From positions 248,001 through 312,000 of the forward strand of contig WION01000028.1 in the NCBI GenBank assembly GCA_015039365.1: DNA of 64,000 bases. The letters are read 5' to 3'. The translations under genes were made by a program, and so were the position numbers. Below are positions 12,903 through 62,787 of the stretch, piece after piece (position 1 is the first letter of the stretch; each line of letters starts with the position of its first letter). Under the pieces are notes generated by a model. That model did no database searches. It worked only from the letters and a program-made list of their open reading frames with translations, and had not been told where the DNA came from. The stretch is from Amanita rubescens. Lineage: Eukaryota > Basidiomycota > Agaricomycetes > Agaricales > Amanitaceae.

Positions 12903-15900
12903 TCACCCTGCAATAAATGGTTGATACATATGTAGTGCATAACTAGACAACTTATACATACCATCAATGCAAGTCACTTGCCTATGGAGTACTGTGACAA
13001 GATCTTGAGCATCAAGGCTTACAATGGCTTGAGTAATGCCAGTCTTCAGCTTCTGAAAATAGCCTTTTTGCTTGTATTGATCAAAGGCTTCTGTGACTGA
13101 TGCCTCAAATGGTTTATTGATCCAAAAGGATAGCTTGGCAATGATAACAATTGCTTCAGAGCTTAAGCAGAAACACAGTAAATGAAAAGGAATAAATTAC
13201 AAACTAAGACTTTGAAACCAGTATCCTAATTGCAATGGCATCAGTTGGGTACTCTCCACAAAAAAAGAACAAAAATACTGTGGTTGCAAAGGGGTGACCT
13301 TGTATGTCTCCAAACATGGAGAAAAGTTCATGCTATGCCATACTTGTGAGATAGAGTAAAACATCCAATGTATCATCAGACCTACACACTAGCATGCAAA
13401 ATGGTATGAAAATCAATGCCTCATGAGTCAGTATTGCTCACCTGTAAATCAAGGAAAGTTGTGTAAGTGAGGGGAATGATCACATGAGGTGGAAGTGGGT
13501 GAGCTGAAATGAAATCTTACAATCTATGATGAGGTAATAATGTAAAACTTGGAAGACATGGAAAAGATATGGCAACATGCTCACTTTCTTATAAATGTAA
13601 GATCCAATATGGATGGATTAAGGTATGTTGAGAATGCAGGTCAGAAAATTTGTGATGTCACTCACTTTCTGGTGGTGGAAAAGATATAATGTGAGTGAGA
13701 CTTGATGTGTAATATCACTCACAAGCTGTTGGTTGTAGGAAAAAATGTGATGAGAGTGCCTTTCACAAAATGTGTAATACTAATCACACACTTCCTGTCA
13801 GTCAAGGAAGAGATGTGATGAGACTGCCTTTCACAAAACACGTAATGCCATCACTCACTCTCTGTCAGCCATAGAAAAAGATGTGCTGAGACTGCCTGTC
13901 ACAAAATGTGCAATGTCACTCACTTGCTGTCAGTCATAGGAAAGGATGTGAAGAGACTGCCTTTCACAAAATGTGCAATGTCACTCACTCGCTGTCAGTG
14001 ATAGGAAAAGTTTAAAGATGTGATGAGATTGCCTTTCACAAAATGTGCAATGCTACTCACTTGCTGTTGGTATAGGAAAGATGTGATGAGACTGCATTTA
14101 TGTACATACAGTGTGCAATGTGGCTCACTCGCTGTAGGTCATAGGAAAAGATATGATGAGACTGCCTTTCACAAGATATGCAAAGTCACTCACAGTCTGT
14201 TGGTCATAGTAGGAAAAGATGTGATGAGGCTGCCTTTCACAAAATGTGCAATGTCACTCACAAGCTGTTGGTAATAGGAAAAGATGTGATGAGATTGCCT
14301 TTCACAAGATGTGCAATGTCACTCACACGCTGTTGGTCATAGAAAAAGATGTGATGAGACCAGCTTTCACAAAATGTGCAATGTCACTCACTTGCTGTTG
14401 GTCACATGAAAAGATGTGATGAGACTGATTTTTCACAAAATGTAAAATGTAACCCACAAACTGTTGGTTATAGAAAAAGATGCAATAAGACAGCCCTTCA
14501 TAAAATGTGTAATGTTGCTTACATCCTGATGGTCAAAGAGAAAAGAATGTGATGAGACTGCCTTTCACAAAATGTGCAATATCACTCACAGACTGTTGGT
14601 CATAGGAAAAGATGCAATGAGACTGCCTTTCACAAAATATGCAAAGTGTGACTGACTCCCTATTGGTCATAGAAAAAGATGAAATGAGACTGCCTTTCAA
14701 AAATTTTGTAACATCACTCACTCCCTGTTGGTCATAGGAAAAAAAGTGATGAGACCATTGCCTTTCAACAAAATGTGCAATGTCACTTACTCGCTATCAT
14801 TGGTAATAGGAAAAGATGTGATGAGACTACACTTCACAAAATGTGCAATATCACTCACTCCCTGTTAATTGTAGAAGGTTTGGTGAAACTTCCTTCACAA
14901 AATGTGCAATATGATATCACTTACTCCCTGTTGGTCATAGGAAAAGATGTAATTAAATTCGCCTTTCACAAAATGTGCAATGTCACCCACAAGCTGTTAG
15001 TTATAGGAAAAGATGTGATGGGATTGCCTTTTACAAAATGTGCAATGTCACTCACAAACTATTGATTATAGGAAAAGATGTGATGAGACTTCCATCCATA
15101 AGATGTGTAATATCACTCACTTCCTGTTGGTCAAGGAAAATATGTGATGAGATTGACATTCACAGAATATGCAAACATCACTTGCTGCCTGTTAAAATAT
15201 GTGGTGAGATTGCATTTTACATTTGTAATGTCACTCACTCGCTGTTAGTCATAGGAAATAATATGATGAAAATGCCTTTCACAAAATATCAAATGTCACC
15301 CACAAACTGTTGGTCGTAGGAAAAGATTTGATGAGACTGTCTTTCACAAAACTTGCAATGTCACTCACATCCTGTTGGTCATAGTAAAAGATGTGATGAG
15401 ACTGCCATTCACAAAATATGCAATCTCACTCACTCGCTGTTGGTCATAGAAAAAGTTGTGATGAGACAGCCTTTCACAAAATGTGCAATTACTCACTCGC
15501 TGTTGGTCATAAGAAAAGATGAGACTGCCTTTCACAAAATGTGCAATGTCACTCACTTCCTATTGGTCATAGGAAAAGATGTGATGAAACTACCTTCACA
15601 ATATGTGCAATATCACTCACTGTCTGTTCAAGGTTATAGGAGAAGATGTGATGAGATTACCTTGCACAAAAACCTTCAACATTGCTTACATGCTATCATT
15701 CATAGGGAAAGAACATAGAACCCCTCTTCAGAAATGTTTGTAATGTTACTCACATTCTGTTGCCCATAGCAGAATTTAATAAGGTTATTTGTCTTTTGAA
15801 CCATTAAACAAGTAGGGCATGCTGCTAACCTCCTATGTCCATAGGAAAATATGTGATTTCACTGCTTTTCACAAAACTTGAAATATCACACACCATCTGT

Positions 15901-18341
15901 AGAGAAAAGAATATGTCCAAGTTGTCCTGTGCTAGTAGCAGAGTAATCGTCATTACTTACTTGCTTTTAGAATGGAATTAGCATCATGAGTTGAGAAAAA
16001 GAAAACAATACCACTGACTTGCTTTTGCCATACATAGTATTGCATATGATGAGTTCACATGTCACAGAAGGATCACATACATCCTGTTTGTTTTGGAATA
16101 GTTTGTGAAGAGGTTTTGAAAAGGAGAAACACCATTTACTGTCTGTCATTTTGGGACATGATGTAATGTTTATATGTAACCAGATAGAAAGGAAAATGTC
16201 ACTTACTTCCTGTTATTGATCAAATGACATTTGTTGAGACTCCCTTTGAGATAATAGTATGCCACTAACTTTCTGTTGTTCAATGATTGAGTTATGTCTG
16301 ATACAGTGCCCACAGACATCAATGTTTGCTTACTTTCTTTAAGCAGATCAAATGTGGTCTGAAGCAGTGTTTCACTGATACTCACTCCCTGTCCATGAGA
16401 GACTGGGTTGATAAGTCTGCTTACAGTAATAGATTAACTCACTTTCTATTGATCATGTATGTGATGCACCATGAGATCATTTACCAAAAATAAAATCAGT
16501 CACATCACTCACTTTCTGTATATTATGGGACTCCAACACTGCTGATCACAAAAGAAAGCATTACTCACAAACTGATGTCATGAGACAATATATCAGATGC
16601 TAGTGCAATGTTATTTAGTACTTACCCACTGATATCAATATCATCAGATCCTGCCACCAAGAATATGATGACAACAAACCTGCATTTCACTCAGTTGTTC
16701 ATTGGCCATCTGAAGCATACTAATCTTGTTTTTGTGTGAAGGCATTGGTGTGTTACTTACAGGCTCCTGATGAACTTTTGAGAGTATTTATCATTCCATA
16801 TGAAGACCACCTACCACTCTGCCCCCTACCTATTGCCATTCAAATTTTGTCATGCTGATGTGCAGTTTGACAAAAATACATACCCAGAAGTGTGGAAATT
16901 TTGAAAAAACTATGAGGATGATATCATCCCATTGCCAATGGTGATGTTTCAGAACATGTCTGAACATTGTCAATGAAGTAAGTGACATTTTGGATGTGGC
17001 CCTCACCGAAGTGCAGATTTAATACAAAGATCAAGGTTATTAATCTGTGTTGAAACAAACAGCTGATGTATGCTGTCATCATTTATTGCATCAGCAGTTT
17101 GTTGAGATAATTCAGCACAAGTCTTCTCTGGTAAATCCATGTCTATGAAACAACATTACCTCCATTTTTCAGGAAGAAATTCTCATCATTCTCACCTTCC
17201 AACAGTACATATGCCTTTGGAGGAAATTTGACATCCAAAATTTTAGGAAGATAAACTTTCTGAAAAGTGAATTCAGCAATTTCCCTGGCTCTCTCCCACT
17301 TATCTTCATCCTTTGAATCAGTCAAGTTGACAAATTCAGTTGCTATTTGACCATCAAATTTGGTGAATACAACCACCAAAGGAACTGTAAAGGACATATT
17401 TACTAATCAATACAATGTAAATTGGCACTTGGTAGCCTTTGTGGAAATTTGGCCAATGGAAAAGGAGGTGACAACAGTCAAGGGTAAACAACCTCTCCAA
17501 AACAACAAGACAAGATATGTATGAATTCATTAGGACTTACCACTGCCTGTCCCTTTATTGAAGAATTCAAGTTCTGCAGGTAGAATGGGGCGAGGGCTGT
17601 CCATGGGTATACAGTACCTACAGGAAGCAAGGTCAGACAATACTATAAAGGGATAAAGCAAGATACCAAATTGCATGCAGCTGTTTATTCAGCTCAGTTT
17701 CTGCAGACTTCCTTTCAATGAACTTCCAAGCAATCTCCGATTCCTCAGTTGAACCAGATTCAAAACCCTGAGAGTCATGAAACATAAAGTTACTTCCAGG
17801 GTATGTAATTTGATGTTCAATATCATGCAGGCCTCTCTGTTATCCTTGCATGTGAATGGACAGATCCATACATCATTGTGACTCACCTCCATTGATGGCA
17901 TCAAATGAATCACAGACTGTTGAAGCTTCTTACCTGCAAGAAACTCAACAGTTAAAGGAAGCACAACTTAACCCAGACTGACTTACCATCCTTGTCATAT
18001 ATGATGGACTTTGTCCCCTTTGCTACACCACAAACTTTCTCAAGGATGGTTGTCTTGCCTGCATTAGCCCTTCCAATGACAAGGATGTGAAAGTGTGGGC
18101 ATTGATAGCGCTTCCTGAGCATTTGGACATGTGTCTCATCCAGAGCTGATATGTGTCAGTCAAGGACTAGCAATACTGAGACATAAATTAGCCTACTGAA
18201 AGAAGGTGCCACAAGACCAGTTGTAGCTTCAGATGTTGTACTAGGAACATGAGTTTGAGTTGCCTTGCTTGCCAAATCCTGCTTGAATTTCTGGGCTAAC
18301 TTTCCCAGTATTGAGTCGATAACTTTTTTTGTCCCACTCAT
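12903..18341 (-). CDS. G-domain (P-loop GTPase-like) protein with 65 predicted exons, 50 of them single codons
   Basis: A predicted 481-aa protein. Normal exons: 18197-18341, 17987-18145, 17887-17933, 17667-17836, 17541-17617, 17196-17384, 17007-17142, 16884-16959. They give a full G domain: G1/P-loop HILVIGRANAGKTTILEK, G3-like FMFHDSQGFESGS, then WYCIPMDSPRPILPAELEFF, G4 VVVFTKFDGQI, and IHQLFVSTQINNLDLCIKSA. This matches the expanded basidiomycete GTPase family. Exons of 15 nt (16815-16829), 6 nt (16761-16766) and 30 nt (16680-16709) follow, then fifty 3-nt exons (16626 down to 13388). The tail exons are 13299-13332, 13219-13225, 12962-13161 (SEAIVIIAKLSFWINKPFEA) and a last one with TGA at 12903-12905. 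Exon lengths sum to a multiple of three with no internal stop. The donor at 13298 (GTCACC) is the weakest splice call. Nucleotide-binding function is inferred from motifs; the role of the tail is unknown. Confidence 0.85.
13386..16628 (-). other. Run of 50 consecutive 3-nt (single-codon) exons
   Basis: Every site reads intron-AG, three bases, GT-intron on the minus strand. Lowest coordinate and codon: 16626 TGG, 16569 TTT, 16513 AAA, 16443 AAA, 16386 GGA, 16334 AAA, 16270 AAA, 16207 GAA, 16140 ACA, 16081 GAT, 16019 CAA, 15961 CAA, 15894 ATG, 15830 GAG, 15754 AAT, 15690 CAT, 15621 ACA, 15557 GAA, 15497 CGA, 15434 CGA, 15369 GAT, 15304 TTT, 15239 CGA, 15186 GCA, 15121 GAA, 15056 TTT, 14991 CTT, 14925 GGA, 14859 GGA, 14791 CGA, 14722 GGA, 14657 GGA, 14590 TCT, 14523 GAT, 14458 TTT, 14392 CAA, 14327 CGT, 14262 CTT, 14194 ACT, 14129 CGA, 14061 CAA, 13989 CGA, 13924 CAA, 13859 AGA, 13792 GAA, 13723 CTT, 13666 AAA, 13585 AAA, 13521 ATT, 13386 TGT. 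Donors are mostly GTGAGT or GTAAGT, acceptors CAG, TAG or AAG. Introns are 49-78 nt apart from one of 132 nt. None of the fifty is a stop codon. Confidence 0.82.
13726..15689 (-). repeat. Tandem array, ~65 bp unit = one intron plus one codon
   Basis: About 30 imperfect head-to-tail copies. On the minus strand a unit starts with the donor GTGAGTGACATTGCACATTT, continues through TGTGAAAGGCAGTCTCATCA, then CATCTTTTCC, and ends TATGACCAACAG (acceptor), a 62-nt intron followed by a 3-nt exon. Intron parts are very similar between copies, while the three exon bases differ from copy to copy. Outside the array (15.7-16.6 kb and below 13.7 kb) the introns are unrelated in sequence, yet the 3-nt exon spacing continues. 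The array therefore looks secondary to the exon structure. Confidence 0.9.
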
Positions 18342-29314: not shown

Positions 29315-31060
29315 GTTACCGGTCAGCTTGCAACAATTTCGGATCAACAGAGGACACCGCCTAACCGTGCTACAAGAGGAACAAGAGGACATTATTATCT
29401 AGATCACATCGCTATCTACAACGACCCTAAGGACCACCTTTGGAAATATTCGAAAGACCACAGTCTCGTACCAACATCAGAGTTTTGGATACCACAGAGA
29501 GCCAACAGGCCACCCAACAACGCATTCTATCATCGATTCAACGACAAATACTATCTCTTAGGATTTGAAGTCGAATTCGACGAAAATAGCAAACGTTGGG
29601 GAGGATATAACCCAGGCCCTGAATCAGAACTCACATACGAATTTGTACCAGACGATTTCTTCAAAGGACCAAAGTGGATAGAAGGAAACCCAGATAACTT
29701 GCCCGAAAACCTACAGCACAGAAGCGCAGTCTCTACACCGAAAGCAGCAGTCAAAACTACACCAAAAGGTAAAACTTTTGGAGTAACAAAAGAAAGCGAA
29801 TCAGGAACCGAATCAAGTGACGAAAACCCCGATCAGCAATTCGAAAGTTCCAGTGACCTTTCCGAGTCAGAAGACAAAACTGTTCCAGACTTACTTAGCC
29901 CAATCGATTTCAACCCGTTTGAAACAGAACAGGAGAAACCGAATTCCCCAGGACTTCAGTACATAGAAGTCGATCCTAAACCCGACCCTAGTCCAGGACC
30001 ACCAGTACCACCACAAAAACCGCCTACACCACCTCCAGAACCACCCATAGCTACGATGACGACACCAGCAATACAACCGATTCCCAGTCTTTTAGGAGAA
30101 ATCCCTACCTTCACAGGAAAGCGATCTCAAGCACAGGATTTCATAGATCGAATGGAACTATTCCTAGATCTCAATCCAGGTCGCATCAACACAGATAGAC
30201 TTAAAATCGGACTAACGTTGTCTATGATAACCGACAAAGCTGAAAACTGGAGACGCAATCAGAACGACGACCTTAACGATGCAGCAAAGACGGAAATAAC
30301 GTGGAACGACTGGACAGGATTCAAAACCAGATTCCTCAACAATTGGCAAGAAATAGATTCACCAGGAAACGCATACACAGAATTAGTACAGCTACAAAAA
30401 CGCAAAGACAAGAAAGGAAAATGAATCTCAATCCCAAAATACGTTGGTTTATTCAAAGAACTAATAAAGAAAGCTGGAATTACAGGCAGTGCCGCTACCC
30501 ACATGTTCGGACAAGGACTCGACGCCAACACATACAGAGCAGTCGTAATGAGAGACCCCAAAAACTTGGACGAATGGTATGAAGGAGCACTCAGAGCATA
30601 CAACGCCAAAACACGTATTGGCATTCTAGCGACTAACAGAGGAGGAACATCTTCACACAAACCCCCTCGAAACGAATGGGATATGGATCTCGATGCAATA
30701 ATTCTTGGCGCGCTATCAAAGGATGAACGAACCCGACATATCCGCGATGGACTTTGTTTCATATGTCACAAACCGGACCATATGTCAGGACAATGCCCCA
30801 TGAGGAAGGATAAAGGATCTTACAAAGGAAAGAAGAAGTTTAATGGAAAGAAAGGAAAGAAATTCGCACACGGTCGTCATATTCGAGCAACCGAAAGGGA
30901 TGACGATGGCAGTAACTATGAAGACGTCGAAGAGTCTAGCCAGCATGAACAAGAAGAAGAAGAAGACACTAGCGACAGAACGATACGCGCTATGTTAAAG
31001 AAACTCTCTCCAGATCAACATATCAACCTCCTTATCAACGCAGATAAACCGGATTTTTGA
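29315..31060 (+). pseudogene. gag: Chromovirus gag with an in-frame TGA
   Basis: One continuous frame is open from 29315 to 31060 apart from a TGA at 30422-30424. Both sides of that stop are clearly gag: IPSLLGEIPTFTGKRSQAQD (capsid start) before it, and IPKYVGLFKELIKKAGITGS after it. A CCHC zinc knuckle CFICHKPDHMSGQC lies at about 30753-30794. The segment before the capsid (29315-30050) is open and protein-like (YLLGFEVEFDENSKRWGGY) but has no ATG before the one at about 30055. Gag forms the virus-like particle. The TGA is a probable CGA-to-TGA change and would truncate gag before the knuckle. Confidence 0.85.
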
Positions 31061-34000
31061 CAGTGGGACACATGTCAGTGGATGCCTGTCCCATGACTTC
31101 GGATTCAACTCCAAAGGACGATCTTTCGATATCACCTGTAATAGTACGTTCTATTTCAAGCAATCGATTATCTATTCCTCTCGAAGTTGAAACCGAAGAT
31201 AACACTGAATCAATGACTGCACTGGTTGACAGCGGTGCAGAAGGTTTATTTATTAATTCATCAATCGCGCATAAATGGAGAAAGAAGAAACTCGCAAGAC
31301 CGATCCGAGTCAAGAACGTTGACGGCACATACAATACGAATGGAGAAATTTCTGACAAGTGTTTGATCACCATCGATATTAATGGAAAGAAGATGACCGA
31401 ATGGTTCTTGGTCACTTCATTTGGCGATCAAAACTTGATACTGGGACTTCCGTGGCTCGAGAAGCATGACCCAATCATAAGCTGGAGGAATAGAACTCTG
31501 GAGTTCCGTAACTCCAAAGAAGACGAATGGAAGGCATCAATACGGAGCATCTTGCATCGACTCGATGAAGAAGCAATGCCTAAATGGGAAGAAGACGTCG
31601 TAATTCGGTATTTGTTGTCACACAAAGGACCAGAAGAGAAGAGTCTACGTTGGAAACTACCATTTGAAGACATAGGAAGATGGACTGAAGAAGATTATGA
31701 CGAGATCACGATTAATCGCTATTCACCAGCTCAACAAATGGAACATAAGTACAACACCGATCAGAAGGAAATCACGCTACCTCCTGAGTATCTCGAATGG
31801 AAAGAGATATTTGAAAAACAAGCGTCAGAACGATTCCCGGACCGCAGATCATGGGATCACGCAATTGAACTTCGCGAAGATTTTATACCAAAGAAAGGGA
31901 AGATCTACCCAATATCACCACTACAACAAAACACGCTTGACGAATGGATCAAAGAACAACTAACTAAAGGATATATACGGCCATCCAAATCTCCACAGGC
32001 AGCGCCATTCTTTTACGTCGAAAAGAAGGACAGCAAAACACTCAGACCCTGCCAAGATTACCGATACTTGAACGAACACACGAAACCAAACTCCTACCCC
32101 TTACCACTCATATCCGATCTAATGCTACAACTTAAAGGATCGCAATACTTCACGAAACTAGACATCAGATGGGGATACAACAATGTTCGTATCAAAGAAG
32201 GAGACGAATGGAAAGCCGCATTCATCACGAATAAAGGACTATTCGAACCAACAGTTATGTTCTTTGGATTACGCAATTCACCCGCAACATTTCAAGCAAT
32301 GATGGACGATTACTTCAGGGACTTCATGAACGAAGGATGGATCGCCATTTACATGGACGACATCTTGATACACGCGCGCAACAAACAAGAACTCGAGAAA
32401 AGAACAAAGCTAGTACTCGCAAAATTAAAAGAACACGATCTTTACCTGAAACTGGAAAAATGCAAATTTGCCGCCGAAGAAGTGGACTTCTTAGGCATGA
32501 TAATCACAAAAGACACGATAAAAATGGATCCAATAAAACTCGCTGGAATCAGAGACTGGCCCCCTCCGACAACAGTTAAACAAGTACGCTCGTTTCTTGG
32601 ATTTGGAAATTACTACAGACGTTTCATATCCAGATTCGCGCACCTCGCACGACCCCTTCACGACTTAACGAAGAAAAACAAGATATGGGAATGGACACTA
32701 GAATGTAGAGTCGCCTTCGACTCATTAAAGGAAAGTTTCGTAACAGCACCAGTACTAAAGATGCCAGATGTTAATCAACCTTTCATACTCGAAACGGACG
32801 CATCTAAATGGGCTGTCGGAGCCGCCTTAATGCAGAAAGATGAAAACGGAGACTTACACCCTTGTGGATATCTCTCACACGCACTTACACCTACTGAACG
32901 AAACTGGCAAATCTACGACCGAGAGCTCTTTGCCATAATATACGCCCTTGACGAATGGAAATACCTACTGCTTGGAGCAGAACACACACTCACTATACAC
33001 TGCGACCACAAAAATTTAACCTATTATCGCGCACCACAACGCCTCACAGCAAGACAAGCAAGATGGTGGAATAATCTCTCAAGATATAATTACCAACTAA
33101 TTCACGTACCTGGAGCAAAATTGACTCAAGCGGACGCCTTATCCCACCGACCTGATCACACTAATGGAGAGGAAGATGATGAAACAGTCACGATGCTCCC
33201 TGACTCATTATTCATTCAAGTCATCGCCGAAGATCTCCGAGATCAAGTAAAGAACGCAACTCAAACCGATGAGTTTGCTGAAACCATTAGAAGATGCTTA
33301 AAGGAGAAAGGAGCAGCGCCTCTCCGCACAGCAATCACTGATTGGACCGAAGATGACGGAATTATCCTATTTAAAAACAAAGCATACGTTCCGATGGACT
33401 CCGATCTTCGCCGATCTATTATTAAAGAATACCATGAAGCACCAAGTGCAGGACACCCTGGATTCTTCAAAACACTTAGCCTATTAAGAGAACACTATTG
33501 GTGGCCTAGAATGACAACACTTGTCAAAAGTTTTATCGACGGATGTCTCACCTGTCAACAGATGAAACCTAATACACACCCCACCGCCGCACCCCTAATG
33601 CCGATTAAATCCCATGCACACCGACCATTTCAACAGATTACTATGGACTTCATCACTGATCTACCGCCTAGCGACGGTTTTGATTCTATCTTTGTTGTGG
33701 TTGACCAAGGACTTTCAAAGGGAGTAATTCTATGTCCCTGTAATAAAACTATTACATCAGCCGAAACCGCCGACCTCTACATCAAAGAAGTATTCAAAAA
33801 CTTCGGATTACCAGACATCATGATATCTGACAGAGGACCGCAATTCGCAGCAAAAGTCTTCAAAGGGATAATCAGCGCACTTCAAATCAAACACAAGATG
33901 AGCACCGCCTTTCACCCTCAAACAGATGGACAAACGGAACGCTACAACGCCGTACTCGAAGTATACCTCCGCATATTCTGCGCTTATGAGCCAGACAAAT

Positions 34001-34674
34001 GGAACAAGATACTTCCTATCGCGCAATTCGCTCATAATTCTAGAACTCATGAAGAACTGAAACAATCACCGTTCTATCTCATGTACGGATCTAACCCTGT
34101 GGCACTACCCCAGGTTACAGAACAGTCAGCTACCCCTGTAGCAGACGAACGCATCAGACTCCTGATCAAAGCAAGAGAAGAAGCTCTAGCAGCACACGAC
34201 CTTGCACGCCTCAAAATGGCACAACGAACGATGAAACATTCGAAACCATTCAAAGAAGGAGAAAAGGTTTGGCTAGATTCAAAAAACCTACGCATTCCTT
34301 ATCAATCACGTAAACTCGCACCTAAACGAGAAGGACCCTTCAAGATAAAGAAAGTCTTAGGACCTGTCACCTATCAGCTAGACTTACCAAAACAATGGAA
34401 GATACACAGTGTTTTCCACGCATGTCTACTATCGCCATTTAAAGAAACAGAATTCCATGGACCTAACGACACACGTCCACCACCCGATCTGATAGAAGGA
34501 TCAGAAGAATACGAAATAGAAGCTATTCTCGCACACCGAAAGATCGGACGTCAATTACAGTTTCTCGTCAAATGGAAAGGCTATGATACAAGCGAAAACA
34601 CTTGGGAACCCCAAAGGAACTTGTCAAACGCCGAGGATATCCTTGACGAATATAAGAAACGTAGGAAACTCTGA
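31057..34674 (+). CDS. pol: Chromovirus pol polyprotein (PR-RT-RH-IN-chromodomain)
   Basis: About 1205 codons in the -1 frame relative to gag, overlapping its last codons. Aspartic protease LVDSGAEGLFINSS (D58). RT with KLDIRWGYNNVRI and YMDD at residues 432-435. RNase H starts at FILETDASKWAVGAALM (D581). The integrase has an HHCC finger ending CLTCQQMK and D864, D925, E961 (35 residues between the last two, as expected). The C-terminal chromodomain is at about 1152-1205 (FLVKWKGYDTSENTWEPQ), which targets integration to modified chromatin. No internal stop, so pol looks intact. Expression probably uses frameshifting or reinitiation at the GGATTTTTGA overlap. Confidence 0.95.
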   Translation: MTVGHMSVDACPMTSDSTPKDDLSISPVIVRSISSNRLSIPLEVETEDNTESMTALVDSGAEGLFINSSIAHKWRKKKLARPIRVKNVDGTYNTNGEISDKCLITIDINGKKMTEWFLVTSFGDQNLILGLPWLEKHDPIISWRNRTLEFRNSKEDEWKASIRSILHRLDEEAMPKWEEDVVIRYLLSHKGPEEKSLRWKLPFEDIGRWTEEDYDEITINRYSPAQQMEHKYNTDQKEITLPPEYLEWKEIFEKQASERFPDRRSWDHAIELREDFIPKKGKIYPISPLQQNTLDEWIKEQLTKGYIRPSKSPQAAPFFYVEKKDSKTLRPCQDYRYLNEHTKPNSYPLPLISDLMLQLKGSQYFTKLDIRWGYNNVRIKEGDEWKAAFITNKGLFEPTVMFFGLRNSPATFQAMMDDYFRDFMNEGWIAIYMDDILIHARNKQELEKRTKLVLAKLKEHDLYLKLEKCKFAAEEVDFLGMIITKDTIKMDPIKLAGIRDWPPPTTVKQVRSFLGFGNYYRRFISRFAHLARPLHDLTKKNKIWEWTLECRVAFDSLKESFVTAPVLKMPDVNQPFILETDASKWAVGAALMQKDENGDLHPCGYLSHALTPTERNWQIYDRELFAIIYALDEWKYLLLGAEHTLTIHCDHKNLTYYRAPQRLTARQARWWNNLSRYNYQLIHVPGAKLTQADALSHRPDHTNGEEDDETVTMLPDSLFIQVIAEDLRDQVKNATQTDEFAETIRRCLKEKGAAPLRTAITDWTEDDGIILFKNKAYVPMDSDLRRSIIKEYHEAPSAGHPGFFKTLSLLREHYWWPRMTTLVKSFIDGCLTCQQMKPNTHPTAAPLMPIKSHAHRPFQQITMDFITDLPPSDGFDSIFVVVDQGLSKGVILCPCNKTITSAETADLYIKEVFKNFGLPDIMISDRGPQFAAKVFKGIISALQIKHKMSTAFHPQTDGQTERYNAVLEVYLRIFCAYEPDKWNKILPIAQFAHNSRTHEELKQSPFYLMYGSNPVALPQVTEQSATPVADERIRLLIKAREEALAAHDLARLKMAQRTMKHSKPFKEGEKVWLDSKNLRIPYQSRKLAPKREGPFKIKKVLGPVTYQLDLPKQWKIHSVFHACLLSPFKETEFHGPNDTRPPPDLIEGSEEYEIEAILAHRKIGRQLQFLVKWKGYDTSENTWEPQRNLSNAEDILDEYKKRRKL

Positions 34675-35606: not shown

Positions 35607-36311
35607 TGTTGAACTTATAATATACGATATACATACAGTATATAGTAAATATAAGTGATATCATTAGTTTACACTAACTAATGTAATAACGCTCAGTTAC
35701 TTACTTGTCTCTCAACCAATCATAATAGTGGATGATTGAGTGTGAGATAATATATTGACATGAGAATATATTCGACATATTCTCATACTCATCTACCAAT
35801 CATAATAGTGGATGATTGATGATGAGAATATATTCTGACGTGAGAATATCCTAGCGATATTCTCATAAGATCATCCAATCATAATAGTGGAACTATTGAT
35901 GATGTGAATATATGTTGACATGAGAATAGAAGACATATATACGTTATGGTTATCGACCTATCACATTGAAGATTGATAATGTGATGAGTCAGTCAATATA
36001 ATTGATGAGTCAAGTGCTGCGCAAAGCTATGCATTGCTGTACAATAGCTGTGCATTGCTGTGGAATGACGCCTTATGAGTCAAATACCTTTGACTCATAC
36101 TGATAAGACTCTTTGTACTTATTTGTAGTTTAGTAGTATATAAACTGTACTCTAGTAGCGTCAATCCTTATCCTATAATCCTCTCTACTGTCTACTGTTG
36201 AGCCCCAGCTCCAGTAAGCTCTTAACAACTCCACACCACACTCAGTAAGTAGTACATTCCATGTACTATACTGCGCTGCTCGCTAGGGATTTGTTACCCC
36301 TAGCTTCAACA
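35607..36311 (+). repeat. 5' LTR of the copia element, with internal repeats
   Basis: 705 bp. Contains three imperfect copies (about 80 bp) of a block with CCAATCATAATAGTGGA and AGAATAT at about 35716-35930, and a TATA box TATATAAA at 36137-36144. The 3' LTR is the matching copy with its TATA box at 45503-45510. Confidence 0.93.
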
Positions 36312-38984: not shown

Positions 38985-41900
38985 ATGTCTTCTTCCAATT
39001 CGATAAACTCCATTGTTCCTGTTCTTACCGGATCAAATTGGCTTGCATTCGAAAGACTTATGACCGCGTACTTAAACAGTCAAGGTCTTGGTGCACATAT
39101 TGATCCTAAACTTGACTGGCCCAGAGATCTTGAACCATCTGAAAAAGCAGCAATCAAGACATCTGACATTAAGCCAGATCAATTAAAAACCCTTAAAGAA
39201 ATTCGCAAAGAATACGTCGAATTTAAAGAGGACAATATGAAAGCCAAAGGTTACATTACCTTAAAACTAGCACCTAATCTAGTACACCTTGTTGACGATA
39301 AAAATGATAAAGCCGAAGTCCTTTGGAAATCTCTAAAAGATAAATTTGGTAAACAAGGTCTGGCTGCTACGTTTGGACTCTATAGACAAATTGTCGATTG
39401 GAAACTCAAAGAGAATTCCAATCCAAACACTCAAGTTCCACATCTTATGGACTTGATTAATAGAGTATCAAACCAAGGTGTAACCTTAACCGTCAAAATG
39501 CAAATTATGACGATCCTACATGCCTTACCTCCTTCATGGGACAGCTTTGTCGCCAATCTGTTGGCACACTCCGCAGATGATGACACTGTAGATGAATTCC
39601 TTAATCTCATATCTGAGGAATGGTCCCGAAGGAAAGGTAACAGGAACAATGCCAATACTTCTGTTGTCACGAGAGGGAATAAAAATTCTAACTCTCAAGT
39701 AGTTGCAAATATGGCACGCCAACAATTGCAACAAGGACAACCTCGCACCCCTTGGAATTCCTATCGTGGGAAATCCTTTCGAGGCAGAGGTGGAAGAAAA
39801 CCAATGGGAAATCGAAGAAACCCAACACAACATACTTCGACAGGTGGACCATCTAATGGACCAAAACATACACCTGGCCAATCTCAGACTCCTTTTAGAC
39901 CCCAATGGGCTGGTCAAGTCCCTAATCAGTCTAAAGGACCAAATTGGGAACGCAATAAGGAAGCTAAAACAAAGAATCGTGCGAATAAACTTGCTGCTCG
40001 CACAGCAGCTCAATCAACACTTGGTTCTGGGCATGCTATGGCATCTTCGACATCAGCATCTTTACCTCTGATTGCCAGAATTGGAGATCAGGTAATGACA
40101 GATTTTGATGAAGAATTTGTCCCCAAGATTTACAAGTACAAAGGTACTCGTGCGGTTCCCACGGACGACTTCATGGGGAGAATTGATGAGATATCCGAAG
40201 ATTCGGGAGATTCTGTATCCAGAGATGTACAAAAAGTACGAACTGAATCAACGGACTACTCTGATATCTTTGATTCTGCAATATTTGCAGATACTAAAGA
40301 TACTCAAAGTGTGGACGATCTTGCTAGTCCTATCTTTGCTTCCTCTAGTATATCCCATCATCAAACCAATAATGAAGGATATCAAACAGATAATGAATCA
40401 CATCAATCTGAGGCCAATTCTTCAGGGTATGAAGGACTTTATACCGATGAGGAGCCTGAAGGACCAATGCCTGGTTCCTTTGATGATGAACAAATAAGTT
40501 GGTGGTATGTACATACCAGACAATATTATGTGGATCAAGTTCGACGAGCTAATTTGGAAGCTCGAAGAATGAATACTAATGCACGCACTTTAGAACACTT
40601 ACAAAATATGTTGAGAGGGATGGTAAATGACCATGACACTGTATCCCTCCGACCAGAATCTGTAAGTTCATCAGATTTAAATTACTTTTATCAATCTGAT
40701 CAAGATTCTGTTTACCATACGGCTCCAGAATCTATGGCATCATCTCAAATCCCAACAAGGCCTATTACGCCTTATGAAGATTTTTTCAATTTATACGATT
40801 ATCCAACTAATCGTACTATTGATACTGTACCGGTAATACCATCAAATGTACCGATAGTAAACCCTACACCAAGAAGATCTACTGATCTTCAGAATTTATA
40901 TTATTTTGATGCCAATATGCGTGAGAATGAAAGATATAGACAAAACATGTCTAATCTTCAAAATCTTCCAAATTATGGAACATTCTCTGAATTATATAAT
41001 CAATATAACTTGGATGAATTCATAATAGAAGAAAACAATAGAAGACGTGCTAATGTTATTAACATTGGACATCTTCAGGATCCATATAATCTACCTTGTA
41101 GTAAATCACCTTCTTGCAAATGTCCTGAATGTTATAAAAATAATAAAGGACTTACAATATGGATGTGTGACTCAGGTGCATCACATCATTTTACCGCACA
41201 CTTAGAAGATTTTGTCAGCTATAAAAAATATGAAGTTCCTACTTCAGTATTTACAGCTAATAATCAAGCAGATATATTAGGTATAGGGACTGTGATTTTG
41301 GATCACACTCTTAATAATGGTTCGGTTTCAAGATTGAAACTTTATCCGGTCCTACATATGCCAAGTGCCACACTACAACTAATAAGCAATGGAACATTGT
41401 GTAAACAAGGTTTTATTGCAAAACAAGATAATGATAGGATTTCTTTCTACAGAGAAGGCTCTGAAAATGCATCACTGGAAGGATTTCCAGGAGATGGTAA
41501 CGAAACATTAATGTGGACAGAAGGTCAAATAATTAAACCTTCAAATTATAAATTAATGATGACCACCATTAATGTTGTTGGATATGAAATTTGGCATCAA
41601 CGGATGGGTCATCCTAGCCAACAAATATTAAAATTAGGCTCTAAAAACTTAGAGGGTTTCCCTCCCTTAACAATTCCTAAAGACTTAGAACCTTGTAACG
41701 GTTGTCTAAAGGGAAAAGCTGTTTCACAAAGCTTTCCTCTTTCAGAAAAACGTGCTACCCAACCCTTTGAACGTATACACTGTGACTTGATGACTTTTCC
41801 AATACAATCTTATCATAAACAGAAATATTTACTTGTAATATTTGATGATTGTACATCACATGTATGGGTAAAACCATTACAGAAAAAGTCTAACGTCGCT

Positions 41901-44900
41901 GTAGTATTTGAAGGTTGGCACAAACAAATATACAACCAATATGGATATAACATAAAAATCGTTCGTTCCGATCGAGGGGGCGAATTTATGTCCACAAACA
42001 TACAAGATTACTTAACTGATGTAGGAATCATTCATGAAAAATCTACTCCATATATACATCAACAAAATGGAAAGGTTGAACGCATGAATAGAACACTTTG
42101 GGAAAAGAGTGAAGCATTGAGATTACATGCTTCATGCCCTCAATCTTGGTGGAACTTTGCGATCGAAACTGCCGTACATGTTTATAATCGTACTCCACTT
42201 AGACGAACCAAATGGAAGACCCCTGTTGAAAATCTTACTGGAAAGAAACCTGATGTTTCTTACTTTAAGATATTCGGATCTAAAGCTTGGGTATTTATCC
42301 CACATGAATCGCGCGAAAATAAATTAACACCAAGGTCTGAAATAATGACCTTTATTGGATACGAACCGAATGCAAAAGCATACCGCTTCATGACAAATAC
42401 AAATCAACTTCGAGTATCCACCCAAGCTGAATTTGATGAAACCAAATTTCCAAGAGCCAAACCTCAAGATGAAAATTATACAAAAAACTTGGACCCTATC
42501 AGGCCTATTGAGCAGGATAATTCTGTAAACTCAGATAAAAATATCTCTAATGGTAAAACAGATAATGAAGGAGATATTTCATCTGAACAGCAGCATTCAG
42601 ATGATGATTTCTTTGATTTCAACTTTGAAAATCATCCTAGTTCTGATTCATCAGATGATGATGATGATGACACTAAATGGGATGATAAATTAGAATCTTT
42701 CTTTGAAAAGAAAGATACATCTTCAAAAGACAAAGGTGCTGAATTAGATCAACCTACAGGCGTTGAATTAGATCTACCTGTACAAAGTCTTAAAGATAAA
42801 CCTACTAAAGGAAAAGGCAAAGGAATTGCTAAAAAACCTGTAGAACCTACTCGAAGATCTGAAAGATCTAGAAAACCGGTTATACAGAAAGACAATGCTT
42901 ATGGTAATAAAACACCATTAGAAATTGAAAAAGAAATTACAGAAGAACAAGATGTTGTTCGAGAATTGATTCAAGATCTTAAAGAAAAAGATAAATCTGA
43001 TCCAAGACTTGATGTCACAATCAGATATTCTCTTAGATCTAAAATACGACAACATATTGATAAAGTTAAATTACTTTATTCAACATTACACAATGCTCAA
43101 ATTAATGAAATGTCATGTCTCATTAAAGAGCAAGGTAATGGTTTTCTGAATTACTTACTCGCACAAGCAATTCCTGCCATTGATATTTCAAGAGATAATA
43201 TCAGAGAATATCAATACAAAGATATTCAAAAAGTCAAAATTACTGATCCCAAATCTTATGAACAATGGGAGACAGCAATGAATGATGAAATGAAATCATT
43301 AAATGATAGAAAAATTTGGGAGCTTACAGAATTACCTCATAATCGTACACCTATTAAATGTAGATGGGTATACGATATTAAATCTGACGGTCGAAAGAAG
43401 GCTCGACTTGTCGCTAAAGGATTTTCTCAAAGACCTGGACTTGACTATGATGAAACGTTTTCGCCAGTGGCAAGATATGAAACGATTCGCCTTTTGTTAG
43501 CAATATCTGTGCTAGAAAAATGGGATATTGAAGCACTAGATGTTAAAACAGCCTTTTTGTACGGAGATCTCGAAGCGGATATCTATATGCAACAACCAGA
43601 AGGTTATGTAGTCAAAGGCCAAGAACAAAAAGTTTACCAACTTAAAAAGGCAATATATGGACTTAAACAAGCCTCATATGCCTGGAATAAACAAGCTAAT
43701 AAATCCTTAGAGGATTTAGGATTTATACGCTGTTTATCTGATTCTGGCGTATACGTCAGAAGAGAAGACGACACTATAATAGTGTGTATAGTATATGTCG
43801 ATGACATGCTTTTCATGGGTGACAATATATCAGAAATTCATAAAATTAAAAATGCTTTTATGAAGAAATGGGAATGTCACGATCTTGGAAAAGTTAAAGA
43901 ATACTTAGGTATGCAAATCAATTACAATAAGAACATGGGTACTCTTATTATTGATCAACATGCATATGCTAAGAAAGTTGTAACAAGATTTGGTTTAGAA
44001 AATTGTAAACCAACTCGTACACCTTTACCAACAGGATATATTCCAACTGCTGCTACAAAAGAATGTACAGCAGAAATGCGATCTTATTTTCAACAAATAA
44101 TAGGATCGTTGTTATATCTTGCATTAGGAACAAGACCTGATATTACTTATCAAGTAATATTAATGTCTCAGTTTTGTGCAAACCCAAATGAAGAGCACAT
44201 ACAGAAAGCATTATACATAGTACGCTATGTTAATACCACTGTACAAACTAAAATAGTTTATAATGGTTTAAATAAAGAAGGCTTTGTAGCCTTTACTGAT
44301 GCTGACTGGGGTGCTGACAAGATTACAAGAAAATCTGTCACTGGATATATAGTAAAACTCGCAGGAGGAGCTATATCATGGGTTTCACGAAAACAAAAAG
44401 TAGTGGCACTATCTTCAACTGAAGCAGAATACATGTCAATGTCTGATACATCAAGACAAATAGTTTGGATTGAGTCACTTATGAGTGAACTTGATTTTCC
44501 AATTAAAACTATTTTCTTATGTTGTGATAATCAAGGTGCAATGTTTTTAGCCAGTAACCCTGCACAAGAACATCGTTCAAAACATATTGACATAAGATTC
44601 CACTACATTAGAGAATGTGTTGAAAGTGAGAAAATTAAACTCACATACATTCCTACCAATGAACAAGTTGCGGATATAATGACCAAAAATCTACCATATT
44701 CAAAATTTGTAATATTCCGAATGAAGATGGGATTAATCCTAGATGATAGTCAAATATCATTAACCAATCATATTAAGGCATCACAAACTTTTGCTAATTA
44801 TATTAAAAGTAAAACCCTTAATAAGTCCTCAGGACAACATAGTAAAATATTTGAAAGAATTCAAGATCTTGAAGTGCGAGGATATCTTGAAGAAATCTTT

Positions 44901-44957
44901 AAATACTATGAAAGAGAAAATGATAAATTGACTACCCTTTTGAAAGCTAATAAATAA
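38985..44957 (+). CDS. gag-pol: Copia gag-pol polyprotein (1990 aa)
   Basis: A single open frame. The copia-type gag (residues about 1-215, SNWLAFERLMTAYLNSQGLG) is followed by a basic linker, a long acidic region, then a small Cys cluster CSKSPSCKCPEC (about 705) instead of a canonical CCHC knuckle. Protease WMCDSGASHHFTA (D729). GAG-pre-integrase WHQRMGHPS with CNGCLKGK. Integrase core D934, D996, E1032 (35 residues between the last two). RT from about 1440 (IKCRWVYDIKSDGRKKARLV) with YVDD at 1604-1607. RNase H DADWGADKITRKSVTG and ALSSTEAEYMSMSD. The domain order PR-IN-RT-RH defines Ty1/copia. All catalytic residues seen, so it may be active. Confidence 0.96.
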   Translation: MSSSNSINSIVPVLTGSNWLAFERLMTAYLNSQGLGAHIDPKLDWPRDLEPSEKAAIKTSDIKPDQLKTLKEIRKEYVEFKEDNMKAKGYITLKLAPNLVHLVDDKNDKAEVLWKSLKDKFGKQGLAATFGLYRQIVDWKLKENSNPNTQVPHLMDLINRVSNQGVTLTVKMQIMTILHALPPSWDSFVANLLAHSADDDTVDEFLNLISEEWSRRKGNRNNANTSVVTRGNKNSNSQVVANMARQQLQQGQPRTPWNSYRGKSFRGRGGRKPMGNRRNPTQHTSTGGPSNGPKHTPGQSQTPFRPQWAGQVPNQSKGPNWERNKEAKTKNRANKLAARTAAQSTLGSGHAMASSTSASLPLIARIGDQVMTDFDEEFVPKIYKYKGTRAVPTDDFMGRIDEISEDSGDSVSRDVQKVRTESTDYSDIFDSAIFADTKDTQSVDDLASPIFASSSISHHQTNNEGYQTDNESHQSEANSSGYEGLYTDEEPEGPMPGSFDDEQISWWYVHTRQYYVDQVRRANLEARRMNTNARTLEHLQNMLRGMVNDHDTVSLRPESVSSSDLNYFYQSDQDSVYHTAPESMASSQIPTRPITPYEDFFNLYDYPTNRTIDTVPVIPSNVPIVNPTPRRSTDLQNLYYFDANMRENERYRQNMSNLQNLPNYGTFSELYNQYNLDEFIIEENNRRRANVINIGHLQDPYNLPCSKSPSCKCPECYKNNKGLTIWMCDSGASHHFTAHLEDFVSYKKYEVPTSVFTANNQADILGIGTVILDHTLNNGSVSRLKLYPVLHMPSATLQLISNGTLCKQGFIAKQDNDRISFYREGSENASLEGFPGDGNETLMWTEGQIIKPSNYKLMMTTINVVGYEIWHQRMGHPSQQILKLGSKNLEGFPPLTIPKDLEPCNGCLKGKAVSQSFPLSEKRATQPFERIHCDLMTFPIQSYHKQKYLLVIFDDCTSHVWVKPLQKKSNVAVVFEGWHKQIYNQYGYNIKIVRSDRGGEFMSTNIQDYLTDVGIIHEKSTPYIHQQNGKVERMNRTLWEKSEALRLHASCPQSWWNFAIETAVHVYNRTPLRRTKWKTPVENLTGKKPDVSYFKIFGSKAWVFIPHESRENKLTPRSEIMTFIGYEPNAKAYRFMTNTNQLRVSTQAEFDETKFPRAKPQDENYTKNLDPIRPIEQDNSVNSDKNISNGKTDNEGDISSEQQHSDDDFFDFNFENHPSSDSSDDDDDDTKWDDKLESFFEKKDTSSKDKGAELDQPTGVELDLPVQSLKDKPTKGKGKGIAKKPVEPTRRSERSRKPVIQKDNAYGNKTPLEIEKEITEEQDVVRELIQDLKEKDKSDPRLDVTIRYSLRSKIRQHIDKVKLLYSTLHNAQINEMSCLIKEQGNGFLNYLLAQAIPAIDISRDNIREYQYKDIQKVKITDPKSYEQWETAMNDEMKSLNDRKIWELTELPHNRTPIKCRWVYDIKSDGRKKARLVAKGFSQRPGLDYDETFSPVARYETIRLLLAISVLEKWDIEALDVKTAFLYGDLEADIYMQQPEGYVVKGQEQKVYQLKKAIYGLKQASYAWNKQANKSLEDLGFIRCLSDSGVYVRREDDTIIVCIVYVDDMLFMGDNISEIHKIKNAFMKKWECHDLGKVKEYLGMQINYNKNMGTLIIDQHAYAKKVVTRFGLENCKPTRTPLPTGYIPTAATKECTAEMRSYFQQIIGSLLYLALGTRPDITYQVILMSQFCANPNEEHIQKALYIVRYVNTTVQTKIVYNGLNKEGFVAFTDADWGADKITRKSVTGYIVKLAGGAISWVSRKQKVVALSSTEAEYMSMSDTSRQIVWIESLMSELDFPIKTIFLCCDNQGAMFLASNPAQEHRSKHIDIRFHYIRECVESEKIKLTYIPTNEQVADIMTKNLPYSKFVIFRMKMGLILDDSQISLTNHIKASQTFANYIKSKTLNKSSGQHSKIFERIQDLEVRGYLEEIFKYYERENDKLTTLLKANK

Positions 44958-44972: not shown

Positions 44973-45677
44973 TGTTGAACTTATAATATACGATATACAT
45001 ACAGTATATAGTAAATATAAGTGATATCATTAGTTTACACTAACTAATGTAATAACGCTCAGTTACTTACTCGTCTCTCAACCAATCATAATAGTGGATG
45101 ATTGAGTGTGAGATAATATATTGACATGAGAATATATTCGACATATTCTCATACTCATCTACCAATCATAATAGTGGATGATTGATGATGAGAATATATT
45201 CTGACATGAGAATATCCTAGCGATATTCTCATAAGATCATCCAATCATAATAGTGGAACTATTGATGATGTGAATATATGTTGACATGAGAATAGAAGAC
45301 ATATATACGTTATGGTTATCGACCTATCACATTGAAGATTGATAATGTGATGAGTCAGTCAATATAATTGATGAGTCAAGTGCTGCGCAAAGCTATGCAT
45401 TGCTGTACAATAGCTGTGCATTGCTGTGGAATGACGCCTTATGAGTCAAATACCTTTGACTCATACTGATAAGACTCTTTGTACTTATTTGTAGTTTAGT
45501 AGTATATAAACTGTACTCTAGTAGCGTCAATCCTTATCCTATAATCCTCTCTACTGTCTACTGTTGAGCCCCAGCTCCAGTAAGCTCTTAACAACTCCAC
45601 ACCACACTCGGTAAGTAGTACATTCCATGTACTATACTGCGCTGCTCGCTAGGGATTTGTTACCCCTAGCTTCAACA
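44973..45677 (+). repeat. 3' LTR of the copia element
   Basis: 705 bp, nearly identical to 35607-36311. The differences seen are single-base transitions (for example TTACTTGTC against TTACTCGTC, CTGACGTGAG against CTGACATGAG, CACTCAGTAAG against CACTCGGTAAG). Confidence 0.95.
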
Positions 45678-50664: not shown

Positions 50665-51690
50665 TCCAGGGGATGTACCCTTTTGGATGCCAGTGACCAC
50701 TGGGGAAGTACTCCTGCTGTTCCCCAGCCTCCTGGTGTCCACTGGGGCCACTGGGGGAGTACCCCTCAGCTGTTCCCCAGCCTCCTGGTGTCCACTGGTC
50801 ACCAGTGGGGCAAGTACCCCTGCTGTTCCCCCCCTCCTGGTGTCCACTGGGGACCACTAGGGGGAGTACCCCTCAGCTGCTGTCCACTGGTGACCACTTG
50901 GGTACTTTTTGCTGTTCCCCAGCCTCCCATTGGTATCCACTGTACCACTGGGGAGTACCCCAGCTGTTCCCCAGCTTCCTGCCAGTATCCACTGGTGACC
51001 ATTGGGGGAGTACCCCTGCTGTTCCCCAGCCTCCTGGTGTCCACTGGTGACCACCGGGGGAGTACCCCTGCTGTTCCACGCAGCCTCCTGGTATCCACTG
51101 GTGACCACTGGGGGGAGTACCCCTCCTGTTCCTCAGCCTCCTGGTGTCCACTGGGGACCACTGGGGGGAGTACCCATGCTGTTCCCCAGCCTCCTGGTGT
51201 CCACTTGGGGAGTACCCCTCAGCTGCTGTCCACTGGGGACCACTAGGGGGAGTACCCCTCAGCTGCTGTCCACTGGTGACCACCTGGGGACTTGTACACC
51301 TGCTGTTCCCCAGCCTCCCAGTGGTATCCACTGGCAACCACTGGAGGAGTACCCCTGCTGTTCCCCAGCTTCCTGGTGGACCACTTGGGGGAGTACCCCT
51401 GCTGTTCCCCACCCTCCTGGTGCCCACTGGGGACCATTGGGGGGAGTACCCCTCAGCTGCTGTCCACTGGTGACCACCTGGGTACTCGTTGCTGTTCCCC
51501 AGCCTCCCAGTGGTATCCACTGGCAACCACTGGGGGAGTACCCCTGCTGTTCCCCAGCTTCCTGGTGTCCACTGGCAACCACTGGGGAGTACCCCTGCTG
51601 TTCCTCAGCTTCCTGGTGTCCACTGGGGACCACTGGGGGGAGTACCCCTGCTGTTCCCCAGCCTCCTGGTGACCACTGGGGGAGTACCGC
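50665..51690. repeat. Minisatellite, ~52 bp unit
   Basis: About 18-20 imperfect copies of a unit containing GGGGGAGTACCCCTGCTGTT, CCCCAGCCTCCTGGTGTCCA and CTGGTGACCA. The unit lacks stop codons in several frames, so long frames on both strands are artefacts of the repeat. A shorter related array (GGGTACTCGGGGAGTGCCCC) follows at about 52035-52155. Confidence 0.9.
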
Positions 51691-62539: not shown

Positions 62540-62787
62540 GTGGTATGGGTTGTCTCCCTTTCCAACTGTGTAAACGGTCGGCGCGTCGGTAGTTTCGGGC
62601 GTTGGCGTAGTGGCATCGGGGTCAGCGGGATTAGCGATCGTCGGTTGATTAAAGATGGTTGTGGGTGTGATATCGTGTATGTGCGGCGTAGATGTATGTA
62701 CGTTTGGCAGTTCTTCATTATTGACATGTTTGGTGGGCGACTGCGGATTCCGAGCGTCTCATCTCCGTGTGGGCGATTCATCGACAA

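Follow-up and report, generated by a model that had tools for sequence, protein, structure and literature searches.

Amanita rubescens is ectomycorrhizal, and the gene that we describe from it can be compared with genes of Tuber melanosporum, an ascomycete, for which Iotti et al. 2012 (Fungal Biol 116:261) is said to be the source cited for codon-sized microexons. Passages of three papers attribute codon-sized or 3-bp microexons to Tuber melanosporum genes of the NACHT-ankyrin or NLR type, and one of these citing papers counts the microexons in tens (PMC4986451, PMC10197012, PMC3689799). The author of an earlier note on the Amanita DNA had known of no described gene built from a run of such length; judged by these passages, where a run of codon-sized microexons is already cited, that statement has to be corrected. 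On the same footing, the two systems share tens of codon-sized exons, an expanded paralogous family, and an ectomycorrhizal fungus as the bearer. They differ in that the Tuber genes are NACHT-ankyrin genes of an ascomycete, whereas the Amanita gene encodes a G-domain protein of a basidiomycete without a NACHT or ankyrin match. Further, the diversity of the Tuber family is cited there as alternative splicing, whereas in Amanita the codons themselves differ between near-identical introns.

Other systems resemble the Amanita locus in part. The HNWD/HIC repeat NLRs of Podospora anserina (het-d, het-e) are described, in the cited excerpt, as having concerted, near-identical repeats with hypervariable sites and diversifying selection (PMC12222747). 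Near-identical tandem repeats with hypervariable sites also characterize the Amanita arrays, there at the DNA level; however, as that excerpt has it, the Podospora repeat is a WD40 protein domain, whereas in Amanita the homogenised part is the intron and each repeat supplies one amino acid. The MEG genes of Schistosoma mansoni, according to the portion of the source that treats them, have exons mostly of 15 bp and introns that range from 100 to almost 5000 bp, and their products are secreted (PMC10526429). To that extent they are like the Amanita genes in having many short exons, mostly multiples of three, and in forming a family that is hard for automatic annotation; they differ in their long introns, against 3-nt exons, tandem introns of ~62 nt (longest 156), and a GTPase product in Amanita. 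A single 3-bp exon is reported for Drosophila homothorax (PMC7392893) and a microexon for Trichoderma Xlr2 (PMC11121469), both, as excerpted, cases of ordinary splicing with apparently one microexon per gene, in contrast to the fifty consecutive ones of the Amanita gene. The immunity-related GTPases (IRG: GM4951, Irga6, IRGB10) are also among the nearest known systems. The Amanita arrays combine Tuber-type codon exons with Podospora-type hypervariable repeats, in another protein family and another phylum, as far as the cited excerpts describe those systems. No account of codon-sized exon arrays or microexons in Amanita was found among the papers listed from the literature searched, whose coverage leaves out most subscription journals.

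The window, the whole stretch of 64,000 nucleotides that was analysed, carries on its minus strand a gene that we modelled with homologous proteins as a guide (Table 1). The model has 65 exons and a coding sequence of 1476 nt including the stop, and reads as 491 amino acids with no internal stop; all 64 introns are GT-AG and measure 47-156 nt (median 62). Fifty-two of the exons are at most 15 nt long and divisible by three, namely fifty of 3 nt, one of 6, and one of 15; the counterpart of the 6-nt exon EP is a single codon (E or V) in 12 of 16 parsed loci. The earlier note had proposed fifty consecutive phase-0 AG-NNN-GT sites, and all fifty are present, inside the GTPase gene. The intron sizes it gave are likewise borne out (48 of the 49 between sites are 49-78 nt and one is 132 nt), and the exons of 15, 6, and 30 nt lie upstream of the run, as it had said. 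It had also put the exon sum at 1446 nt with no internal stop, of which the absence of an internal stop stands and the length has to give way to the longer value above. Weaker sites are CAA at 15184, whose donor reads GTGATG and which our chain program skipped, and TGT at 13388, which follows the 132-nt intron and is backed by a protein record, P0121, reading ...LK-I-C-DELFSMF. At ~13441 on the minus strand, between codons I and C, an AG is immediately followed by GTGAGC, and the 132-nt intron may be split there by a zero-length exon or a recursive splice site.

Table 1. Parts of the one-codon-exon gene in the window, with the basis on which each was placed
Feature	Position	Strand	Basis
Whole gene, 65 exons	12903..18341	-	GT-AG introns, open frame, homologs
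Seven exons, N-terminus and G domain, P-loop GRANAGKT	17007..18341	-	PF01926; partly annotated as P0001
76-nt exon HVLKHHHWQWDDIILIVFSKFPHFW	16884..16959	-	Match in P0007 and P0046; similar stretch in P0002
15-nt exon VGGRV	16815..16829	-	Counterpart VDRA / VGRD in P0007 and P0046
6-nt exon EP	16761..16766	-	Gene model
30-nt exon MANEQLSEMQ	16680..16709	-	MANKQLSEAQ in P0046, TNEQLSETK in P0007
Leader, 15 one-codon exons WFKKGKKETDQQMEN; common paralog form WFEQGKKETDREIKY	15754..16628	-	Joined in P0007, P0046
Array core, 65-bp tandem repeat (~62-nt intron plus one codon)	13705..15671	-	30 copies, 75% matches
Full set of 50 one-codon exons: WFKKGKKETDQQMENHTERRDFRQEFLGGRGGSDFQRLTRQRQRELKKIC	13386..16628	-	AG-NNN-GT sites, gene model
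Trailer codons K (13587), I (13523), C (13388)	13386..13587	-	K-I-C then [DH]ELFSMF also in P0121
54-nt exon HELFSMFGDIQGHPFATT	13279..13332	-	Gene model, related protein records
25-nt exon DTGFKVLV	13201..13225	-	PTDCQVLV in P0121
192-nt exon, C-terminal domain SIVIIAKLSFWINKPFEAS...	12962..13153	-	Predicted helical in the model of relative P0053
Final coding exon (GG TGA) with stop	12903..12907	-	Gene model

The match of the encoded protein to the G domain PF01926 is marginal (22.2 bits against a cut-off of 21.9), with GRANAGKT as the P-loop. A Pfam scan of the G-domain part and the C-terminal exon gave no match to NACHT or ankyrin at E values up to 1; no STAND NTPase with WD40, ankyrin, or TPR repeats came above the cut-off, nSTAND_NTPase5 (E 0.16) lying below it; and sequence searches of Pfam, NCBIfam, and PDB returned nothing closer than the G domain. 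The nearest proteins to the window gene are hypothetical proteins of Amanita rubescens. As the earlier note had expected, the annotated protein covers only the G domain: P0001 (241 aa) ends in ...CIKSALR, the G-domain end, and equals this part of the window gene except for a later start and one short exon. Because the annotated protein is without the array segment, that segment would escape ordinary comparisons.

Under a strict chain rule that admits introns of 45-80 nt, 25 consecutive sites chain at the array, compared with 2 elsewhere on the minus strand and 2 on the plus strand. Every one of 100 dinucleotide shuffles of the window gave a longest strict chain of 1-2, and 1000 shuffles of the array region gave none above 4, which rules out chance chains as the source of the run (25 observed versus at most 4); elsewhere in the window the chain program found no run of six or more codon-sized exons. 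However, a single 65-bp tandem repeat makes up much of the run (13705-15671), so that the fifty sites do not count as independent events, and the evidence for exon status comes from tests other than the site count. The suggestion that the sites are one-codon exons of a protein gene gains support, at the level of sequence, from stop avoidance, preserved splice sites, a leader shared by paralogs, and the same leader found joined in the protein records of relatives.

What goes beyond the earlier note is that the run is one among many paralogous arrays with homogenised introns and hypervariable codons. Array DNA occurs on at least 38 contigs of the assembly, which measures 75.7 Mb (the window's contig and haplotype copies included, with 40 of 176 candidates scored), and P-loops at no fewer than 150 places (150 of 264 candidates scored, again with haplotype copies). 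We compared 20 stretches from 19 contigs with the window, making 21 loci in all, near-copies included; every one of the 20 carries one-codon exon arrays, and L009 is identical to the window across their overlap. Units were cut by alignment to a 62-nt intron consensus plus three free bases, with the last partial unit of each locus dropped. Of 918 exons in the 21 loci, 900 are 3 nt (three of these in L020, once an acceptor displaced by a 10-nt deletion was corrected), a count biased toward 3 by an alignment that expects three exon bases. Once joined, the array is open and divisible by three in 18 of the 21 loci. L011 has one 2-nt exon and, sixteen units later, two more, with the frame regained and no stops. 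Broken arrays are those of L021 (contig C749; 14 exons that are not 3 nt, and one stop once joined), L025 (one 2-nt exon, two stops), and L026 (one stop). Array sizes vary among paralogs, with the longest chained run, 86 one-codon exons, in L018; in L028, periods of 130 and 195 bp mark block duplication.

In most arrays the introns are homogeneous and the codons different, stops are avoided, and splice sites are preserved. Over the 813 units of the 21 loci with intron identity >0.7, the two bases of the donor GT are retained in 100% and 99.8% and those of the acceptor AG in 98.5% and 98.5%, and entropy is 0.0-0.6 bit in intron columns and 1.79, 1.85, and 1.38 bits in the three exon columns. 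Leaving out the near-copies L009, L014, L015, L016, and L017 gives 16 non-redundant arrays, in which diversity is 0.013-0.177 for introns and 0.38-0.65 for exons. The exon/intron ratio runs from 3.6 in the window, whose array has the most divergent introns of the sixteen, to 32 in L018, and in 11 of the 16 arrays the three most variable of the 65 columns are the exon columns. Of the bases compared between L010 and L012, 35 of 84 differ in the exons, 10 of 1762 in the array introns, and 49 of 1699 in the flanks. Three of six close pairs (window/L009, L015/L018, and L016/L018) show no exon base difference and 0-1 array-intron differences, L015 and L018 being one unit apart. L014 and L019 differ in a run of four adjacent codons and L017 and L019 in a run of two, at 1-3 bases per codon; one of these six changed codons is synonymous, and the intron changes number three and two, respectively, in ~2490 bases. 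That adjacent codons change together suggests that entire units were exchanged, rather than altered by point mutation.

Stop codons are rare in the arrays. They account for 1 of 545 codons in the 16 non-redundant arrays and, with near-copies included, for 2 of 897 in all 21 loci, versus 47.8 expected from base frequencies. Genome-wide there are 1316 exact junctions of the form AACAG-NNN-GTGAGTGACATTG, one of them with a stop, in the L026 array; a control with the reversed pattern gave 0. T stands in first position in 1 of 324 stop-prone contexts versus 55 of 221 others (Fisher p ~1e-22, over codons that share ancestry and are non-independent). Codon preference was read from 13 arrays picked as intact, for which reason their zero stops are a biased count. 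There, nearly a single codon serves each of several residues: arginine is CGA in 89 of 94 cases, glycine GGA in 63 of 63, and glutamine CAA in 55 of 55. Among codons of these arrays that end in A or T, the T-ending ones make up 1 of 153 for glycine and arginine together and 76 of 94 for leucine, valine, and alanine; a codon ending in GT would place another potential donor two bases ahead of the true one. Depletion of AG inside codons was not seen in the 13 arrays (9 observed, 9.4 expected).

Upstream of the hypervariable part, 18 of the 21 loci chain through a one-codon leader, commonly of the form WFEQGKKETDREIKY. Our comparison of leaders was made without L009, without L011 and L024 (whose chain lacks WF), and without L014, L016, L017, L018, and L020 (each within 1% of another row). 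With the window, L025, and L026 also left out and the broken L021 included, ten paralogs show an exon identity of 0.957 (gaps 0/2025) and an intron identity of 0.896 (gaps 1246/33383), and exons beat introns in 39 of 45 pairs. A wider count, which adds the window, L025, L026, and a variable 16th codon, gives 0.900 versus 0.880, with exons higher in 47 of 78 pairs. The window is the family outlier in its leader: compared with L010, its exons are at 0.81 and its introns at 0.85, and its leader codons are no better kept than its introns against the paralogs shown.

Protein records show parts of the array in joined form. P0007, an open frame of 386 residues on a 1446-bp contig, passes from the G domain through TNEQLSETK-WFEKGKKESDREIEY and 42 more residues to I, after which it apparently reads through the last intron (IVRFHF). 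P0046 reads MANKQLSEAQ-WFEHGKKDTDKQIVY and then leaves the expected frame; it and P0124, a C-terminal piece, are both on contigs of 1903 bp and may be one partly spliced transcript. Given the read-through of P0007 and the frame departure of P0046, splicing may be incomplete. P0121 reads LK-I-C-DELFSMFGDGQRNFAVKPTDCQVLVSIIIIAKLSFW, in the order of the window's trailer and downstream exons. Since their frames are uninterrupted, P0007, P0046, and P0121 are presumably cDNA. In P0126 and P0150 a single frame leads from a WF leader to the C-terminal domain, and the linkers are unrelated; P0051-P0053 likewise have unrelated linkers at the array position, and P0052 and P0053, which share 89% identity over their alignment, differ in their linkers. 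With the C-terminal half of one paralog as query, only P0007 was found among 199 candidates; an alignment of eight C-terminal halves found 108 proteins, 26 of which were read. The leader had no match as a contiguous peptide in the genome, a result that says little, given a 28-aa query and no positive control.

From the DNA and protein records, we think it highly probable that this is a GTPase gene whose fifty one-codon exons would be spliced into a hypervariable linker that connects the G domain with a helical C-terminal domain. The unit of ~65 bp that is repeated can be regarded as a codon cassette, one ~62-nt intron with one codon; splicing likely joins the cassettes into the linker, and recombination between near-identical introns, through what may be gene conversion or unequal crossing over, likely reshuffles the units. 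Because each exon is one phase-0 codon, units could be gained, lost, or swapped without frameshift or stop. Selection would favor different residues, and the linker might serve to recognize something variable. We put forward tentatively that the family is a repertoire of GTPase receptors in which one linker varies from member to member, residue by residue, their variable peptides being reshuffled via the homogenised introns, and, with the same reserve, that such a repertoire would be a codon-level counterpart of immune-repertoire generation. On the cassette explanation itself, the fungus can likely rewrite one stretch of protein amino acid by amino acid, with a hypervariable segment for which introns would supply the homology for recombination and single codons the content. 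Dozens of consecutive 3-nt exons, far under ordinary exon size, would also place splicing near its limit.

The cassette explanation has to be weighed against others. A 65-bp tandem repeat does exist here, and copying alone keeps AG and GT in register, so the array might be a non-coding minisatellite in one large intron, with the splice-site letters copied along and the 3-nt spacers meaningless. We regard this as very improbable, however, because only one stop occurs in 1316 junctions, in all 16 arrays the spacer bases vary far more than the introns do on average, frame is preserved in 18 of 21 loci, and the leader codons are found joined in uninterrupted protein records. Hardly more credible is that an introner-like mobile intron inserted repeatedly into an older uninterrupted exon, each time between two codons, the variable codons being the old coding sequence. 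It would account for near-identical introns beside dissimilar codons and for the unrelated linkers of P0051-P0053 at the array position, and some of the at least 410 matches of the array intron may lie in unrelated genes; but insertions that leave exactly one codon between them, dozens of times, seem improbable, and the block duplication seen in L028, with its periods of 130 and 195 bp, and the differing array sizes of paralogs also speak against it. Least plausible of all is that the runs are remnants of a decaying family. The broken arrays of L021, L025, and L026 fit such relics, whereas the 18 open arrays, the single stop among 1316 junctions, and the near-invariant splice sites do not.

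A different kind of alternative concerns where the diversity arises. Each gene might yield many isoforms through the skipping of single codons in many different combinations, as the passages on the Tuber family that cite alternative splicing of microexons would lead one to consider; since every exon of the run is 3 nt and in phase 0, any subset could be skipped. The exon-versus-intron divergence among paralogs means that change at the DNA level is already large, and we consider it rather unlikely that diversification by splicing is the main function of the array, though this would be compatible with the cassette explanation.

Several members of the family are irregular. L021 is the most irregular, its 14 aberrant exons being of 0-2 nt; it may be in decay, or skipping may rescue it. 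L029 (C3:126500-136400) has runs of 84 and 36 codon-sized exons, a different start (EIGLNQLVKQ...), and a C-terminal exon between the runs; we dropped the reading of this part of C3 as one longer array, since that exon parts the 84 codons from the 36, and L029 is perhaps two tandem genes. At C8:77513-80165, like junctions recur at 56 bp or multiples of it over part of the run, in a subfamily with shorter introns.

The window also contains mobile elements and other repeats. On the plus strand, a Ty3/Gypsy-like retrotransposon frame with reverse transcriptase, RNase H, integrase, and chromodomain lies at 31057-34674, and a Ty1/Copia-like polyprotein frame of 1990 aa at 38985-44957. The latter is flanked by two stretches ~9.4 kb apart (35712-35928 and 45078-45294) that have an 80-bp tandem unit in common and are probably within the terminal repeats of the Ty1/Copia-like element. 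A further retroelement occupies 60308-63741 on the minus strand in two frames (RNase H with reverse transcriptase, and aspartyl protease with DUF4100), and a GC-rich tandem repeat with a unit of 51-53 bp in ~19 copies lies at 50695-51681.
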